A stretch of DNA of 64,000 nt from Bisporella sp. PMI_857 (taxonomy: Eukaryota > Ascomycota > Leotiomycetes > Helotiales > Helotiaceae), in assembly GCA_021307315.1 (NCBI GenBank), contig JAJSPD010000001.1, positions 1,736,001 to 1,800,000 on the forward strand. Reading direction: 5' to 3'. Shown piece after piece: positions 13,490 through 24,257 of this stretch. The notes beneath the pieces were generated by a model. That model did no database searches and had not been told where the DNA came from. It saw only the letters and a program-made list of their open reading frames with translations. The position numbers and the translations under genes were made by a program. Position 1 is the stretch's first letter; every line of letters begins with the position of its first letter.

Positions 13490-16400
13490 TCATTCGTCGC
13501 CTCCATCAGCAGTGAAAGTATCCAGATATGCGCTCATCAGTCTCTCTGCCTGTTCCTCACTCAGCATCTCCTCAGACCCTTCTTCATGTTCCGAACTTCC
13601 ACGCCGCCAGCGAGATCCCTCTCCAAAGTCCGACCCTCCCAATGAACTGATGCTGTCATTTCTAGCCCTACTCTTCCTTCTCGATCTGGCTGAGTGGCGC
13701 TCCTCCTCTTTTCTTCTCTCTTCTGCTAAAACTGCAGCTGCGCCAGCAACGCCCGCTGCCACCGGCCCCCAGCCGTTTGTCCCGAGCTCAGGAAGTGGCT
13801 TGTCATCTGCAAGCTGTTGAACACTAGGCCCTAGTGTTTGGCTCTCAACAAGATACAACGGCTTGATCTCCTTAGTAGTATCCCAGGAAGCTGGGCGTGG
13901 TCGATGCCTTGGGAACTTCAGAGGCACTTGACTTTGGCTTGGGGATTTAATAGGCGAGTCTTGGGCGCTTTTGCGGATAGCAGTCTTGATTCCCTCTTTT
14001 GCTAGGCGCCCAGACTCCGGCGTCTCTGGGCGGTTATCTGGCAATCTAGGCAGATCATCGAGAGGTTCAACGTTAAGTGAAGTCGGGTCGCTAGGTGGTA
14101 ATGGAAGAAGGTCGCCATATTGTGGATCTATTGAAGGCCTAAATTGTGGTTGTGTGAGTTCTGGATCAAGAACCTCATCCGCTCGCTTCTTCACCACGCT
14201 CCTCGTATCCTCAAATTCTAAATTCGATCTTCGTGCTGCTTTATCTCTCTTTTTCTGTTCCTTCTTAGATAGCTTTAGCTCAAAGTAATGCTCATTCCCA
14301 GAACCTTCACTTTTAGGCGAATAGTTGAGATCGTGTGGGAACTTTACTTCCTTTGGCTCAGAATCACCTGGCGGCGAGTCTCGTCTCCGATAGCTCGGGT
14401 CGTCGATCACAATATTAGGGTCAAAGCCTGTATCTTGGAGCCCAGCAGATACTGTTGCGGCAAAGTCTAGATCGTCATCGATACCACTAGGCATAGATGA
14501 TTTGGAATGTTCTCCTGTAGTAGTGGCCCCTACACTAACACGAGTCTTCTTTTTCTTCTTGCTCTTCTTTGTCCCTGCCCAGCCGCTCCAATAATCTTCT
14601 TGTGGTCGTTTGATATCGTCGAACGCATCAACAGGGACTGCCATTGACTGTGAACGGGAGGAAACTTGCTCGGGCTCCATCATGCGTCTGTATTGGCTTT
14701 TCTTCATCTTTCGAGTTTCCCCTAAAATGAAATCACTGCTCTTCAGCTCTTCAGCACCAAGCTTCACCTCGTCACTCCACGGATCTCTGTAGCGTTCGAT
14801 AGAATCACGGCCTGTTGCATCTTCGGATGGAAGAATTCCACCACGGAGCAAAACCATCCACTTCGTCTCCTTCTCCGTCACCTTCCTCGACCATTTGCGC
14901 TGCCAGAAGTATGATGCAGTCTCTTCCGGTGACATATACGAGGAGATAAATTCGACTCTCCAGCCATACGGTTTGCATGTACTATTTTTTCTATCATCTA
15001 GCAGGTCTTCGACGGCGCGTCTGGCCTCGTATGGCAGTTCAGCCACATTGGTGATATGCTGAGCAACACCTGAGCGGTCCAATTCGGGATTGGAAAGCCA
15101 GGCTTCTAGGACCGTTTGGTCTCGTGTCAGGAAGGAGGTCTTGTAGTTGAACGGTTCTTGGCTTGTGAATATTCGTATTCTCAAACCGCAGATGCTGATG
15201 ATAGATGGCATTACGGGATAAGGAATCTCCGGGGCGAGGAGCCAACCTTCAAATATGTTGGTAGCAACGGGCGATTCTCTGATGTAAAGTCAGGATCAGT
15301 ATGGAGCTGAATTCGGGATTTTGTCTGTACCTTGATGGAGCGGCTTGTTGAGAAATAGACTCTTTAGATACTTCCTTTCCAAGCGCGCCTGGGTCTGATA
15401 CAGAGTCGCTGGGTGTCTTTTTTAGTGAGTCATCTGAAGCTTGCTTGAAAAGTCCGAAAAAGCTGCCACCCTTTTTCTGAGTCTTGGGAGATGTCGTCTT
15501 GATGGCGAGATCATCAAGAGTCTCTTTGTCGATGGTTGGCTCGGCTCGATATCCATTCAGCGGAACGGTTTTGGCAAGGTTATGCTGCTTGAGACTTTCG
15601 AAAGTGCTTTCTTTTTTAGGTTCCTTTTTGCCCTCTGGCGAAACGGCACGCCTCTTGAAATTTAACTTCGTATTAGGATTTTCTGTGGGACTATCTTTTT
15701 GACTTCCCTGTTTATCCTCCGAGGAAATCACACGCCTCTTAAGATCCAGGTTTGTGGCGGCTATCGTCAAATCTTCAACCCCCATGGTTTCATCTTGAAC
15801 GTAATCGGGAGGGTCATCCGTGCCTACTGCTGGGCCAACCACATACATCGTCACCGATACCGAATCATCTTTGTTATGCTCGACTTTTTCTTTGCCTTTA
15901 TACGCTGGAATAGGCATCAAACCAGCTTGTTGGATACTTCTCACCAGCGCAGGAAGATGTCTCATGAAAAGTTTGAAGTCATCTGCTTGCTCGTCGCTTA
16001 GTAGATTTCTGTTTATCAAATCAGCATTATTCCCTTCGAACCTGGGAATTTAGGGCATGCATGTACTTTTTACTCAGCGATCTCAAGATTGTCAAGTTCA
16101 ACGAATCCAGCAGCAACTGCAAATTCGACTTCGAAGTCTCAATCGAAGCCACCAAATCCTTCAACTCCTGCTCACCCCCAAGAGCATGCTTCAGCTTAAT
16201 CCACACATCAATTTTCTTCACCTGCGCCACACCATCACCAGCCGACTCCTTCCTCACAACTCTCAGCGCCACAAACAGCACATCGAAATTACGGTGACAC
16301 GTGTCCCTCGTCGCAATGAAGTTTTCGACAGTCAATCGACATTCCTTCTCATAGGTATCAATGGTTTCGCCGATCGATTTGAGGATTGAAGATGTGAGTG

Positions 16401-16539
16401 CCACGTCTGCAGTTAGGCTTTTGATTTTTTGCTCGGCGCCGCGGTAGACATTGGTGAAGGTCGTGAGGGTCTTCACGATTTGGATGCCGAAGGCTGCGAT
16501 GCCGATGACGGACGCGGCGACGCTGAGGGGGTCGGCCAT
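13490..16539 (-). CDS. Protein with STAND-type fungal N-terminal domain and long disordered tail
   Basis: Three exons, 16539-16067, 16008-15331 and 15278-13490 (introns 58 and 52 nt), give 979 residues. Residues 1 to about 170 (MADPLSVAASVIGIAAFGIQ) match the N-terminal helical domain often found on fungal STAND/NLR and HeLo-like proteins. No NACHT or NB-ARC P-loop follows. Instead there are charged linkers, a globular-looking block around residues 390-520 (SICGLRIRIFTSQ, YFWQRKWSRKVTEKE, KWMVLLRGGILPSED), and a long disordered C-terminus with a basic KKSKKKKK run, an Ala-rich patch (AAGVAGAAAVLAEE) and an acidic end. The gene diverges from a HET-domain gene 440 bp away. A signalling or scaffold role in non-self response is inference from domain type and position only. 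Confidence 0.85.
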
Positions 16540-16555
16540 GGAGAGCTGCCATCGG

Positions 16556-16843
16556 TTGCAAGGTTAGGAGGACGACAGACCACGACAGTACGGAGATCCA
16601 AGGGAAATGCTCAAGATTCTCAGCTCGCTCGAGCTGAGCCTCGGTGGCTGAAGGTGTTATGTACTCCAAGTCCGATAGGTGGACGGGTGGCCAATGATTT
16701 CCCCCTTGCTTCGTGATGAAGTTCTCCTTCAGTGACCGCAGTGTGTGGCCTGGGAAATGCCGTCCTATCTCTGCCCAGGTCTTGTCTTCGTAGACCATCT
16801 TAGCCAACAGACTCTCTTGATTGTCTGATTGCCAATTGTAACG
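16556..16843 (-). pseudogene. Myb/SANT-like fragment
   Basis: Minus-strand sequence reads YNWQSDNQESLLAKMVYEDK and then TWAEIGRHFPGHTLRSLKE, the pattern of a Myb/SANT helix-turn-helix (spaced W, LL, W.EIG..FPG.T, LK). No start codon precedes the first helix: a stop lies just upstream in frame, and the frame then runs on into the 5' end of the neighbouring gene on the same strand. It is therefore most likely a remnant, though a short gene starting at the internal Met (about 16798) cannot be excluded. Confidence 0.5.
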
Positions 16844-16979: not shown

Positions 16980-18862
16980 ATGTCACTTTGCAAGCTTTGC
17001 TTGTCAATACCATTTGGATCTCTACCCTCAATACAGGATTACGAGACTTGGGGCCAAGTAGGCCAGAAGTATCTCCATGCCTTTGTGCTCTCATCTGACA
17101 ATGTTGAGAAGACAATCACCGCTGGAATACTACACCAACCTACCTTAGAGAGCCTCAAAAGTTCTGCAAAAGATTGCAAGCTGTGTCGACTTATTCTTAA
17201 GGATGTTGAAAGTGTTATAGCACAGATTGAAGCGTGCACCGCGTCAAGCCATAAAGAAAAGACAAATCCGTGGCTGTATACTCTACGGTTTCGATTTTCA
17301 CTCGTACAAAAAGGGCAGGAAGATGATGGATTCTGGGTGTTATCTTCGACAAACAGCCTAGATACATTTCAGTTGGTCGCCGCTTTTCAATTTTGTGCGA
17401 GTGATGGTATGTCAAAATGTTGGTCTTAGACATCCGCAATAATTAAACTTACATTTTAGATGCTCAAATTTTCCCAGCTCTCAAAGGCCGACCAATAGAA
17501 CCAGATCCTCGAGGTGCGATATCCATGGAAAGAGCACTGAAATGGGCGAAAGAGTGTGATGAGTGCCATCAAGATTGCCAACAAGACCGTCAGCCGCTTC
17601 CATTTCGCGTTCTAGAGATAGGAGATGAAAGGATTAGACTAAAGGAGACCAATGGTGAGTTAGGATCATATATTACTCTTAGTCACTGTTGGGGGTCCTC
17701 GAAACAGCTCACGACCACGCGCTCCACGTTGGCTGCTCGAATATCAGGTATTACCTTCGATGAACTTCCAAAGACATTCCAAGACGCAGTACTCCTTTCA
17801 CGAATACTAAAAATTTCTTATCTTTGGATCGATAGCCTTTGTATTTGCCAGGACGATGAAGAAGATTGGGAAAGGGAGTCGGCAAAGATGGCGACGGTGT
17901 ACGCCAGTTCATATCTGACTGTTGCAGCCATCGCAGCCACGAATAGTGCGGATGGATTATTTGCACTGCGAATTCCGCCACAATTTGTCGAGATTAAATA
18001 TACATTTGCAAATGGGACAATTGGACGAGCGCTGGCTTTTGCGGTTCCTATTTGGAGAGAAGTAAATCCTCAAAAATACACACATTTATCCCACGAGCCT
18101 TTGAGCTCTAGAGCTTGGGCATTGCAGGAGAGAGCATTGGCACGTCGGACGTTGCATTATGGAAATAATCAGATGTATTTTGAATGCAGCACCAGGTTTG
18201 AAGCCGAAGACGGTTTTCGATTCACGGGGCATTACTATCCGGTTCTCAGAAGGTTTCGAAAGGAGATCAATGATAAATCGAATCAAGCCATGATGGATTA
18301 CTGGCAAGATCTGATAAGGGCGTATAGTTCTCGCAAGCTAACAAAAGCTTCCGATAAGCTCCCGGCAATTTCAGGACTTGCTGAACTGATGCAAGAAGCT
18401 TTTATTAATCAAGAATATCTTGCTGGTCTGTGGTCTGGATCTCTAGTTGAGCAACTTTGTTGGTTCACTGACGAGAACACACTCCGCATACCAGAATTAC
18501 GCGCTCCGTCGTGGTCCTGGGCATCCTGCGATGGAAAAATAACCCATTTTAATCTCAAAAAAGATTGCCCGGCCATCGCAGAGATCATTGGCCATCAGGT
18601 GAAGCCCAAAGGGGCAAGTAGATATGGGCAAGTCATCAGTGGATGGATCAAAATCAAGGCTCCATTGATTCCACTATACTTCAGCGAAGAAAACGATCCA
18701 TATAGACTAGACGGTAAGGAGATTTGCATGTTAAAGCCTGCCTTAGGTGCGAAAGGCCTCTTCACGGTTTCTACAGACCACAAGAATGTAGAATTCCCTA
18801 TATATATCATTCATTTAACTCAGGCTTACGAATGGCGGCACCATATATGCCAAAAGCTCTGA
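16980..18862 (+). CDS. HET-domain (heterokaryon incompatibility) protein
   Basis: Two exons, 16980-17406 and 17460-18862, encode 609 residues up to a TGA. The HET domain is clear: YITLSHCWGSSKQLTTT, then LPKTFQDAVLLSRILKISYLWIDSLCI with the CQDDEEDWERESAKM block, YASSYLTVAA, and the distal RAWALQERALARRTLHYG. An N-terminal Cys motif (CKLCLSI) and CRLILKDVE precede it, as in many HET proteins. HET domains trigger programmed cell death after fusion of unlike hyphae. The normal C-terminal part continues downstream in another frame (18871-19281), so this copy may be truncated or frameshifted. It diverges from the STAND-N-domain gene. Confidence 0.9.
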
Positions 18863-19436: not shown

Positions 19437-20671
19437 CTAAGGGCCTACTATACTCTGGATATCATCAACTCTCCGCTCCTCGATCCATGATATTGCTTCC
19501 TCTCTGTTCCGACACATGTGAGGCTGGCCTTGGCCGGTGGTGCCTAGCTCTGATGGTTGCCCTTCAAGCGTCATGTCTGCCATGCATAACAGCTGAAGTC
19601 GCAGGTACTCGAAGCACTGGAATTTATAGTCAGTAAGGCAATTATGAATACAATAACTGATGTGTAAATCCGTTTTGCATCTTGACATTGATAAGAATGG
19701 CCTCGATGAATGCCATCTCAAACTTCTGATTGAGGAGAGTTTTCGGCGCGGTATCTACAGTTGACATGGATAGACCAACACTTACATGTTCGGCATGCGC
19801 ATCATTCCGTTCTCCATCAAATCCAAACTTCTGGCTCACGACTAACTGATGGTATGTATCAACGCTATAGTATAACTGTATAACATGAATCAGCCTTTGG
19901 GGCGACACGTGAACTTAAAATGGCTTACACAATGCAATGCGTGTGTCCAAGCTGCCTCATATATTGGTCCACCTCGAACTGGATCATCTTCGATTGGGTG
20001 GCCTAGCAATGGGTAATTTTTATGCTCTGGAATAGCGACGCTACCGCTTCCAACTACAGGATGTTAGAATTAGATCCCTGCATAGGCTGAAAACTGGCTT
20101 ACGAGGCATTCTAAGAACGTCTTGTCAGCGTATGTTAATCATAACAGTTAATTTCCAAATAGTCCGTCGAAGAAGTTTGCCAAGAGGCAAGAATACATAC
20201 AACATGTCCCAGTTCTTGCGAACCTCCATTCTATTTGCATCCGAACTCATGTTTGGGACGAACTTGTCGCTCTCTGGCGTAAGAAGCGTATACCTATGCG
20301 AAGCTACCCACTGATTCAATTTTCGCTCTAAATAACCGCGCTCTCGTCTACTCACTGGGGATATAGAGCCCATTCACATCGCCACCAGTCTCAGTTTCGC
20401 CCTGCGTCCAGCCCGTCCTTGCCATCTTGGCGCCATTTCGGAACAGCTGCAGCACGATGATACTCTGCATCGTTATGATCGCAGACCACCTCAACCACAC
20501 CAATGCCTCTGACCTCGCCCTTCTCCGCCTACTCTGGCGTTTTGCATCTCCGTTCGACTTAAGAAATCCAGTTGACGTTAATGTGGTGTCAGAATCATTC
20601 TCAAGGTCTATATCAAGAATCACGTCGTCCTTCTCCAACGAAGCGTACTTGCTCTGTTTCGAGCCTGCCAT
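19437..20671 (-). CDS. UstYa-family (DUF3328) oxidase-like protein A
   Basis: Six exons: 20671-20356, 20303-20201, 20110-20103, 20053-19929, 19875-19786 and 19616-19437, summing to 273 residues. The third exon is only 8 nt and supplies the LMPL of NWDMLMPLGSGSVAIP, the conserved family block. A transmembrane segment at about residues 58-78 (ALVWLRWSAIITMQSIIVLQLF) follows a cytosolic tail. Both HxxHC motifs are present: HALHC (end of exon 4) and HAEHC (across the exon 5/6 junction). UstYa-type proteins oxidatively cyclise precursor peptides in the ustiloxin, phomopsin and cyclochlorotine pathways. A second family member and a repeat precursor lie next door, so a role in a peptide pathway is likely. 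The 169-nt fifth intron is the least certain part. Confidence 0.9.
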
Positions 20672-21252
20672 AGTGATAATATTAAATTAAAGAAGCCCGC
20701 TCTCAAGAATGAACAAAAGATAGTGCAACCAGTGCTGTGGAGAAAGAAAAGAAAGAAATCTCGAAGACGGGAATTTGATAAAGTTGGGAGTGAAGATGGA
20801 AAGACGGCAAAAATTAAGAAAGCTTCACCCGCGTGGATCTGAACCTCCATATGAAGCTATGACCATCCACTAGCTCTGTGGCTGGGTTACGAAAATGTTT
20901 CACGATGCCAAGTATATCGCACCATGAGCCGTTGAGTGACAAGGAAGGTCAACGCGGCGCCAAGGATCGTGAGACGCCATTTCCGTTCTGTGGGGAGGTG
21001 CTGAGACCAACATGATTTTCCTCGGCGCTGAAACGCATTTATGGTGCCGTGTAGCCGGCTCTTGAAATGAACTGGCAATGCCATGTTAATGCCGCAGCTG
21101 CTCGTAAGAGGTGGTGGAAGATTCGAATTTTACCTAATAAGGGCCAAACACTGAAATCACATATCACAGGATAATCAAAAGGGACAATAATGGTTGGTTC
21201 AGGACTCGAAATATATTATTGGGTATATCTACTGGAAACATTGACAGTGCAT
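20672..21252. other. Region between the two UstYa-family genes
   Basis: Probable promoter and leader of the gene starting at 20671 together with the 3' flank of the gene ending at 21253... orientation being the same for both, the former's upstream region abuts the latter's 3' end. No other gene is visible. Confidence 0.4.
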
Positions 21253-22236
21253 CTATCTTGATGTCTCTATAGGATGAATATCAGGTCGCTCCATATTTCC
21301 AACTGAGTTCTCAATCGCCCACTCTCTCACGGCATCAAAATTCCGGCACACGTGCCATTCGGTATCGAGCTCAGGCCATGGTAATGGGTCTCCGTCCATC
21401 ATGTAGAAGGTGAATAAACCAACATCTGCGTTGCACTGAATGCTCTTGCGTAATATCTCGAGGCAGTGGTCTATGGTTTGTTAGCTATTATCTACAAACC
21501 TTGCGTGGATGGCTTACCGATATGCATGGTGAGGGCTTCCTCGCCATCTTCAAACTCCCCACCAAGGTCCTGATACCAGGATCGATATGCCACCTGGCGG
21601 AGGACGTTGACACAATGTAATTGATGGAAGACTTCGAGGCCGACACGGTACCCCTCGACACCGGTCTTTGGATGTTTTACTTTTAATGATGATTCTGGCA
21701 TATCGAGGATCTGGCGCTCTTCGTCTGTGATCATTTGGTCCCCAACTTGTATTTGTTAGAAGGAACCCAAGACCTAGGGTTTGATGAACGTACCCTCGTA
21801 GGTAATAGCGGCCCATGCCTTGTCAACCTCTGGTCCATATCCCACGTATGGAGAGCCTTCTCCCATCGTATCGTTGAACTGTATCCTCTCATACTTGATT
21901 GCTTCCGCAGCAGGTGCTTTTCTTCACGTTAGCTTGGAAGTAGCGGGCCAGTTAGGCTTACTTACAGTATGCTGAAAATTTCTTCACATAGGTTAAAGTC
22001 GACGCCCTGTTGTAAAAGGAGGCAACGAACATGATGAAAGAGAATGTGAGAAGAACCAGATGAACCAGCCAAAGCCATCGTTCACTCGGCGAGAATCGTG
22101 GTGCAGCACGATCTTGTTCATGGTCTAACAAGGTAGATGTTAAGCTCTCTGATTCTGATGGGCGTCTTGGTTTGATATCGTGAAACTTCTCCGAATCCTT
22201 CTCCGAATCCCCAATCTGTTGATATTTCGAGCTCAT
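21253..22236 (-). CDS. UstYa-family (DUF3328) oxidase-like protein B
   Basis: Four exons: 22236-21966, 21916-21794, 21745-21518 and 21470-21253 (introns 47-49 nt), giving 279 residues. The cytosolic N-terminus is polar, followed by a membrane segment WLWLVHLVLLTFSFIMFVAS at about residues 54-73. Then come the family blocks GYGPEVDKAWAAITY and the two HxxHC motifs: HQLHC (in VFHQLHCVNVLRQ) and HIDHC (across the last intron), both intact. The C-terminus has the usual HVCRNFDAVREWA. It is of a different subgroup from the neighbouring UstYa protein, as the central block is GPEVDKAW rather than RKNWDML. Two differing family members acting on one precursor is a recurring arrangement in fungal UstYa-type peptide clusters. 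Confidence 0.92.
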
Positions 22237-23446
22237 GATTATTATAAAGCTTCCGTCAAGGAAGTGCGAATGAACGTAGAAAATGAGGACAATTAGAACG
22301 AGAAATCAACAAAGTCTGGTTGCTTTGGCCAGCAGCAGCAATGAGTAAGAAGGAAAGAGAATGGGAGGGAGATAGAAAGAAAATCGTGAGAGGCGCTCAA
22401 CACATCCCTAGGACAGAGCAGACTGTACAGTGGGACGGTGGAAAATGAGGTTGGAGAACGAGATCATCTATCTCGCACATGGCCTTAAACTCAAAACGAC
22501 ATTATTTGCCGGTCATTCGATATTCCAGTGATGGTAGTGGCGCGTGTTCGAAACCAAGGTGCCACAGATTATGAAGCCCCGTGCGAAGGGGGTTATGGGT
22601 CGGAGTACATGTTTCAACCATTGAGCGATACCCTAGCGCAGCTCCTTAACCGAGCCAAGGAAAATCTGCATCGCCCAGCAAGCTTGGTATCACGTGTGCA
22701 GATCTCGGTTCCAAAGTTTGAACTTCTTCATCCTCCTCGAAATGGCCTTTGCCGTTTGGGGAACAGCCGGCCGTAGGCTATTCTTTCAATGTTTTGTCTT
22801 GGTTCAGAAGCTCCCCTCCCCTGGTCATGGCCCACCTCAACCTACCAGAGTCGTACCCCTGAGTTAAGCGAGGACACCAAGTGGCTCGCGAATTACATGT
22901 CTGATATGCATTTGTCTGAAGCTTGTGTTTGAGGTGCCAAGAATATCACTAAAATCTCCATTGCTAAGGTCGATTGATTGGTCTTTCCCCTGCTGTTCCC
23001 CAGATCGAGGCGGGCTGGTGTTTGACTAGCTAAAGAATCCACGGCCGAGCCATCGTGAAGGCTAAAGGTTACCCTTCTGGTCAACCGCAGCCGCGCGGAG
23101 CTGGAGGTGCAACTGGTATGGCACTGTTAATCATTTGTCTCGCATCTGGCGTTGTGGGTTTTGAATGACAGCAATGGGAGCCCTGGCCATCAAGCCGCTC
23201 TGATGGAGATACTCCTGACGTTTGGTTCGTTCGTCTGAATTTACGGTTCTCCCTTTGACTCCGTGGTCAGAGAAATGGACTGATCTATAAAACCACTCAA
23301 ATCCCCTCATGAGTTGATTTCATTCTCATCCTATTCTACCTTCGTCACATTCTCCACCTGCTCCATTCACCCCTTCCTCTTTGACAGAGTCTAATTCCAT
23401 TCGCCTACTGCCGGCCAGTCGTTATATATTCACACATTCCTTCAAG
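22237..23446. other. Divergent promoter region between UstYa B and the repeat precursor
   Basis: 1.2 kb separate the two start codons; no supported ORF. The region should hold the regulatory sites of both genes. I did not recognise a specific binding site for a cluster regulator. Confidence 0.5.
23286..23292 (+). promoter_or_regulatory. Probable TATA box of the repeat-precursor gene
   Basis: TATAAAA lies about 160 bp before the start codon and is followed by a pyrimidine-rich leader (TCATTCTCATCC, CCTTCGTCACATTC). This is a strong TATA for a fungal gene and fits high, conditional expression. Confidence 0.5.
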
Positions 23447-24257
23447 ATGCTTACTATTTCGATCGCCCAGCTGTTTGCTCTTGGTCTCTTGGCCACTGCT
23501 CCTCTCACGTTGGCCAATCCCATTTCTTTGGCGTCAGACCTGTCGGCTAGACATGAGGTAGAGCTACATCTCACAGCAAGACTACAGTATACTAACACCA
23601 GCACAGGCATCCTCCTCATCTCCCCTCCTCGATGTAGCCATCGAGGCTAGGCACCATACCGCCAAGCAGATTGCTGCTAAGAAGGCTAAAGCCAATACTC
23701 GTGACCTTGAGGATATTGAAGCGCGGGAACCACACCACACAGCTAAGCAGATAGCTGCTAAGAAGGCCAAGGCAAATGCTCGCGACATCGAGGTGATTGA
23801 GGCTCGTGAGCCTCATCATACAGCGAAGCAAATCGCGGCAAAGAAGGCAAAGGCCAATGGTGCTCGTGATGTTGAAGCCATCGAAGCGCGAGAACCACAT
23901 CATACAGCAAAGCAGATCGCCGCTAAGAAAGCAAAGGCTAATGCCCGCGATCTCGATATTGAGGCTAGGGAGCCACACCACACTGCGAAACAAATCGCAG
24001 CAAAAAAAGCCAAAGCAAATGCCCGTGACGTAGAGCTCGAGACTCGTGAGCCGCACCACACTGCCAAACAAATCGCAGCGAAGAAGGCCAAGGCCAACGC
24101 TCGCGACCTCGATGTCGAGACCAGAGAGCCTCACCACACCGCCAAGCAAATTGCTGCTAAAAAGGCCAAGGCCAACGCCCGTGATGTTGAAGCTATCGAG
24201 GCTAGGCACCACACTGCTAAACAGATCGCAGCTAAGAAAGCAAAGGCAGGAAACTAG
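23447..24257 (+). CDS. Secreted repeat protein, candidate RiPP precursor with eight identical cores
   Basis: Two exons, 23447-23557 and 23607-24257 (49-nt intron, phase 0), give 253 residues. I chose the ATG at 23447 over the one at 23381 because it places a signal peptide at the very N-terminus: MLTISIAQLFALGLLATAPL, cleaved near TLA-NPIS. After a short leader come eight repeats of 25-28 residues. Each contains the invariant HHTAKQIAAKKAKA, separated by acidic spacers such as NARDVEAIEAREP. Lys-Lys occurs in every repeat and may be a kexin site; no KR or RR is present. This is the plan of kexin-processed fungal RiPP precursors (UstA, PhomA types), and two UstYa-family genes lie immediately upstream. 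No Cys, Tyr, Trp or Phe occurs in the repeats. Alternative: a secreted cationic repeat peptide or effector without modification. Confidence 0.85.
23652..24248 (+). repeat. Eight in-frame coding repeats of the precursor
   Basis: Copies of HHTAKQIAAKKAKA start at 23652, 23733, 23814, 23898, 23976, 24054, 24132 and 24207 (period 75-84 nt). Amino acids of the 14-residue segment are identical in all eight, yet third codon positions differ widely between copies, for example GCT/GCC/GCG/GCA for the same Ala and AAG/AAA for Lys. The first and last copies lack the preceding Glu-Pro. Confidence 0.95.

Follow-up and report, generated by a model that had tools for sequence, protein, structure and literature searches.

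Fungi possess a large family of peptide oxidases, the UstYa proteins, and in the parts of the literature consulted the cross-links ascribed to these enzymes lie on aromatic residues. The locus considered here raises the question of what such oxidases might do to a candidate substrate in which histidine is the sole aromatic side chain. It occupies positions 19437 to 24257, from the stop codon of one UstYa gene to that of a precursor gene, of a window of 64,000 nucleotides from Bisporella sp. PMI_857, a member of the Helotiales in the Leotiomycetes (contig of 2,026,417 bases, genome of 55.6 Mb). That this stretch is a RiPP-type cluster, in which two UstYa genes accompany a repeat precursor, is well supported, and the core cluster is taken as these three genes. 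The reading preferred here, at a probability of roughly three in four, is that they form a minimal fungal RiPP module built around a precursor of the di-histidine type, and that this module would yield an oxidised His-His peptide. The gene models, built from splice signals and family fit without transcripts, give the following features.

19437..20671, minus strand: UstYa-A gene, 273 aa, six exons (20671-20356, 20303-20201, 20110-20103, 20053-19929, 19875-19786, 19616-19437), motifs HALHC and HAEHC
21253..22236, minus strand: UstYa-B gene, 279 aa, four exons (22236-21966, 21916-21794, 21745-21518, 21470-21253), motifs HQLHC and HIDHC
22237..23446, unstranded: divergent intergenic region common to UstYa-B and the precursor, 1210 bp, from the gene models
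23447..24257, plus strand: precursor gene, 253 aa, exons 23447-23557 and 23607-24257, eight HHTAKQIAAKKAKA repeats
23447..23518, plus strand: signal peptide predicted from hydropathy and inspection by eye, spanning roughly residues 1-24, with cleavage near TLA/NP
23652..24254, plus strand: repeat array, eight HHTAKQIAAKKAKA cores and seven acidic Arg-containing spacers

The initial annotation had described a tandem pair of different DUF3328 genes, each with a membrane helix and two intact HxxHC motifs, and this description is borne out by the Pfam profile, the motifs and the hydropathy. The UstYa profile (PF11807/DUF3328) scores 181.3 bits for UstYa-B and 62.9 bits for UstYa-A, against a cut-off of 25. 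Both proteins possess the two HxxHC motifs and, on the N-terminal side, a membrane helix deduced from hydropathy and from the structural model, which is weaker in UstYa-A (highest 19-residue hydropathy of 2.2 in B and a modest 1.6 in A). In both genes the second HxxHC crosses a splice junction. UstYa-B is 100% identical to the public Bisporella sp. PMI_857 protein B0O99DRAFT_605126 (P0037) and UstYa-A 99% identical to P0146, whose gene model adds two residues where the last intron (19617-19785) is spliced out and thereby breaks the second HxxHC; an alternative splice, six bases off, restores HAEHC, the family consensus being HAAHC. A 28-nt first intron of UstYa-A was also discarded in favour of a 52-nt intron. 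Among the relatives of at least 220 aa, which leave aside 31 of the 109 B and 20 of the 77 A matches, the first HxxHC is kept in 77/78 B and 56/57 A proteins, the second in 71/78 B proteins, and two HxxHC motifs occur in 53 of the 57 A proteins. The AlphaFold2 models are of middling confidence (mean pLDDT of 72.5 for B and 66.3 for A, the latter computed on the public sequence, its two added residues included). The UstYa-B model found no fold match in the PDB at E 0.001 or better, and sequence searches against solved structures returned nothing useful. UstY enzymes are described as using a dicopper site in the consulted portion of PMC12186524; UstYa-A and UstYa-B are probably membrane-anchored dicopper oxidases.

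The third gene, which diverges from UstYa-B over the 1210 bp separating the two start codons (the gap between A and B measures 581 bp), likewise agrees with the earlier description of a secreted eight-repeat protein lying across 1.2 kb, the signal peptide being recognised by hydropathy and by eye. Its intron (23558-23606) contains TACTAAC. The repeat core consists of 14 residues, invariant across the eight copies, and yet all 14 of its codons vary between copies, with 14 variable sites at the third base and none at the first or second. Since this variation is purely silent, the peptide itself has been kept by selection. The core bears a charge of +4 and the spacers, six out of seven of which end in Glu-Pro, charges of -1 to -3. 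Past residue 24 the precursor contains 17 His and not a single Phe, Trp, Tyr or Cys. Kexin sites in their usual sense are not found, KR, RR and RK being absent from the protein and KK occurring once per repeat, inside the core. Judging from the 36 database matches (P0001-P0036), none of which is identical to it, the public gene set apparently lacks the precursor gene.

The relatives help to predict where such a protein would be cut. When the window protein and its 36 relatives are taken together, 169 of 174 HH units are preceded by an Arg followed by zero to four X-Ala or X-Pro dipeptides. The five exceptions comprise two units of P0012, which follow runs of five dipeptides when the search pattern allowed four, one unit of P0020 adjoining the signal peptide, and two of P0026 that are not repeat starts. 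This R-(X-A/X-P)n-HH pattern predicts a mature peptide with a free His-His N-terminus, and the peptide probably starts at His-His. A Lys or Arg precedes the Arg in 50/169 units and in none of the eight of the window protein, where six Ala and two Thr are found instead. An alternative main Kex2 cut at the internal KK (AAKK/AKAN) was rejected, because this KK lies inside the conserved core and the dibasic KR of the relatives coincides with the Arg before HH.

From these patterns we infer the processing, the order of its steps and the action of the UstYa proteins as follows. The precursor would enter the secretory pathway, where a Kex2-like protease would cut after the single Arg flanking each repeat; a Ste13/DPP-type dipeptidase would then strip Glu-Pro and a Kex1-type carboxypeptidase the C-terminal Arg. 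At most eight copies of a cationic peptide starting with His-His, about HHTAKQIAAKKAKANA, would thereby be set free. The monoisotopic masses predicted are 1686.964 for HHTAKQIAAKKAKANA (1684.949 with -2H), 1716.975 for the NT form, 1743.986 for the NGA form and 1672.949 for the form with a C-terminal GN. The two UstYa proteins would oxidise each copy, and as to the bond or group formed our proposals are guesses. Cleavage followed by Ste13 trimming is the layout of pheromone and some other repeat precursors, according to the part of PMC6339444 consulted. The genome holds one proprotein-convertase domain match and three DPPIV_N loci, which count in favour of this pathway. The lack of KR and RR in the window precursor counts against the preferred reading, in which the kexin cut after AR or TR is a prediction.

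The association of the three genes recurs in other fungi. The initial annotation had proposed their co-conservation as a check, and in Hymenoscyphus fraxineus the counterparts of A, B and the precursor bear the consecutive tags HYFRA_00010573, 10574 and 10575, with pairs in further species. In Ciborinia the precursor adjoins B (NHQ30_010197, 010198), and in three fungi, Icmadophila and Trichoderma chlorosporum among them, the precursor and A lie on contigs of equal size with tags two or three apart. With a shared contig judged from the equal size of database contigs, 5/36 precursor matches share one with an A or B match, in Hymenoscyphus fraxineus with both. For the other 31 no shared contig was seen, and many of these are short metagenome contigs or clusters reduced to one representative. 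In Lachnellula hyalina an A relative and the precursor occupy different contigs, the precursor entry being partial and a contig break possible. Matches to A and B occur together on 10 contigs of at least 5 kb, that of the window included, and Venturia effusa carries relatives of both on one contig. No named Trichoderma or Talaromyces protein occurs among the 109 B matches, so that a general occurrence of the A/B pair is not established. The relatives of the cluster parts belong to what we take to be several classes of Ascomycota. As to the genome itself, the stretches less than 5 kb from a UstYa match of the profile search add up to 0.8% of its 55.6 Mb, a low estimate since UstYa-A escaped that search, and the adjacency of precursor and UstYa genes is more than chance.

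Is this kind of precursor new? The initial annotation expected a product not resembling those known, an expectation that does not hold at the level of the precursor, whose type was catalogued as early as 2020. The consulted sections of Umemura 2020 (PMC7329392) define a KEP by a signal peptide and at least three repeats, each 8 aa or longer, lying between KR, KK, RK or RR, and include a type G-3 (#6) of 64 proteins from 20 genera, Lachnellula, Botryotinia, Botrytis, Trichoderma and Talaromyces among them, with a di-histidine motif remarked upon as in type G-8. To the doubt whether the repeat protein might be common without UstYa neighbours, the same sections give the opposite answer: 57 of the 64 G-3 members have a DUF3328 gene within 15 genes and 7 do not (PMC7329392). 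The window precursor resembles G-3 in its di-histidine repeats, its signal peptide, the DUF3328 genes within 15 genes and its homologues in the genera of that list; it differs from G-3 in that its sites are single Arg, never KR or RR, and in that a second repeat, of the FG[PS]W type, is lacking. It agrees with the KEP definition solely through the core-internal KK, with a signal peptide read from hydropathy. Judged by relatives, motif and neighbours rather than by the published profile, the precursor fits G-3, and the window cluster is a further member of a kind known since 2020. No product of a G-3-type precursor was found in the literature searched, largely without subscription papers. Cluster 55 of Trichoderma concerns a different peptide in the accessible text of PMC7099791, and work on lichen RiPPs exists (PMC12048977, consulted in part).

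G-8, the other di-histidine class, shares the di-His motif and DUF3328 with the window, as far as the available catalogue pages go, but its sequence differs beyond HH. Two Colletotrichum relatives, P0024 and P0036, display HHRGKKTKKA units after AR-EP (once EPEP), with the same EP-HH junction as the window protein; from the genus list of G-8 they probably belong to that class. In a tree of 40 named B and 4 A rows, which drew long-branch warnings and leaves 29 other rows outside the count, one branch (95/95) splits 11 B rows from G-3 genera or precursor owners from 4 rows from G-8 genera, a split that taxonomy explains in part. The FG[PS]W repeats also occur in 16 of the 36 precursor relatives, including those of Talaromyces, Trichoderma and lichen fungi, and are missing from the other 20, several of which look truncated by eye, and from the window protein. 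UstYa genes lie beside precursors devoid of FG[PS]W in the window, in Hymenoscyphus and in Ciborinia, so that the His-His repeat, and not FG[PS]W, is the likelier UstYa substrate.

Compared with the dikaritins (ustiloxin, phomopsin and asperipin-2a), the cluster has in common a repeat precursor and UstYa-family oxidases, and differs in lacking KR, any Tyr, Phe or Trp to cross-link (none after residue 24) and a tyrosinase. Thus, of the RiPP pathway first proposed for the locus, the repeat precursor with its two UstYa proteins stands, all the more as counterparts exist in other fungi, whereas a cyclisation on Tyr, Phe or Trp as in ustiloxin does not: with none of these residues past the signal peptide, aromatic cross-links of the ustiloxin, phomopsin or asperipin type are impossible. 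The absence of a tyrosinase, methyltransferase or transporter beside the genes was rightly noted, no tyrosinase (PF00264) being matched in the window, as opposed to 36 exon matches elsewhere in the genome, and no methyltransferase or MFS domain in 42 selected window frames of at least 130 aa. On contigs C101 and C112 tyrosinase matches lie within about 3 kb of UstYa matches, those of C101 on the same stretch as a Tyr-rich repeat precursor (L021). The genome contains at least 75 PF11807 exon matches in at least 48 gene-like groups and at least 38 loci, UstYa-A itself being missed. Of the 37 other UstYa loci, 19 were covered by a scan of 20 surrounding regions for exact repeats, which inexact ones would escape. 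It revealed four putative repeat precursors, whose repeats all contain Tyr and KR.

L021, 7530-7931: repeat precursor, units PSWYYDKKR
L030, 1896-2264: repeat precursor, units VPDWNYYGSESSTSKR
L020, 856-1386: repeat precursor, units LLDLTYIDKR
L018, 6539-6892: repeat precursor, units TYVDAENGLYPL

These four loci are candidate dikaritin-type clusters, and among the five precursors only that of the window is free of both aromatic residues (Phe, Trp, Tyr) and KR. Elsewhere, nine dikaritin clusters are reported for Venturia inaequalis in the part consulted of PMC9632046, and four adjacent DUF3328 pairs, one within a co-expressed cluster, for Sclerotinia in that of PMC6941272.

Any oxidation of the peptide must strike His or non-aromatic side chains, since the precursor is devoid of Phe, Trp, Tyr and Cys. 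A narrower version of the preferred reading, which we hold as tentative and somewhat short of even odds, has the UstYa pair desaturate or hydroxylate the peptide, for example at a conserved Ile, without any cross-link, giving a modified linear peptide. The excerpts of PMC10880069 list cyclisation, chlorination, hydroxylation, transacylation and desaturation among DUF3328 activities and, for phomopsin, link members of the family to desaturation at Ile, Asp and Pro. Of 158 HHT units, in which His1, His2 and Thr3 were set by the search pattern, 150 retain Ile7. Such chemistry leaves unexplained why His-His alone is common to both di-His classes. A bolder version, rather doubtful in our estimation, would have the pair install a His cross-link or an imidazole change at the His-His end, UstYa-B representing a subfamily which, throughout the Ascomycota, is dedicated to di-histidine precursors of both classes. 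A copper-binding peptide could then be the product. We know of no UstYa-family member that forms a histidine cross-link or modifies an imidazole.

Two further explanations dispense with UstYa chemistry on this peptide. It seems improbable that the gene encodes a plain linear secreted peptide (a signal, an antimicrobial or a metal-binding peptide), the UstYa genes serving another substrate or being bystanders. The cationic core between acidic spacers agrees with this, as do the secreted repeats with an Arg and Ste13-type dipeptides, shared with ascomycete alpha-pheromone precursors (PMC6339444, seen in part); nevertheless, counterparts of A, B and the precursor cluster in other fungi, pheromone precursors occur without DUF3328 genes save for three exceptions in the consulted part of PMC7329392, and their sequence gives the impression of being unrelated. 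Still less credible, and very improbable, is an uncut repeat protein with a structural or wall role: the window protein does lack KR and RR, but KR occurs in relatives at the corresponding Arg, the X-[AP] pattern persists and the neighbours are UstYa genes. The preferred oxidised His-His peptide has the merit of being directly testable, predicted masses and termini being at hand for UstYa chemistry on such a peptide and three genes being small enough for a full rebuild in a laboratory host.

Two frames lie beyond UstYa-A, the second of which was left out of the cluster.

17447-18859: frame with a HET (heterokaryon incompatibility) domain
16030-16563: frame with a PigL_N domain

The name PigL_N derives from a pigment cluster protein. 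The far side of the precursor shows BAR and RhoGEF domains and a telomerase; more distant are a P-type cation ATPase 15 kb to the left, and an alpha/beta hydrolase and a short-chain dehydrogenase 15.6 kb and 20 kb to the right, respectively. The genome has no second copy of the precursor, the sole other match (L011, 1105-2064, minus strand) being an unrelated repeat protein in which single-Arg spacers separate GNNAESFFKSLRSR units, on a contig without a UstYa match, and perhaps an unmodified secreted peptide precursor.
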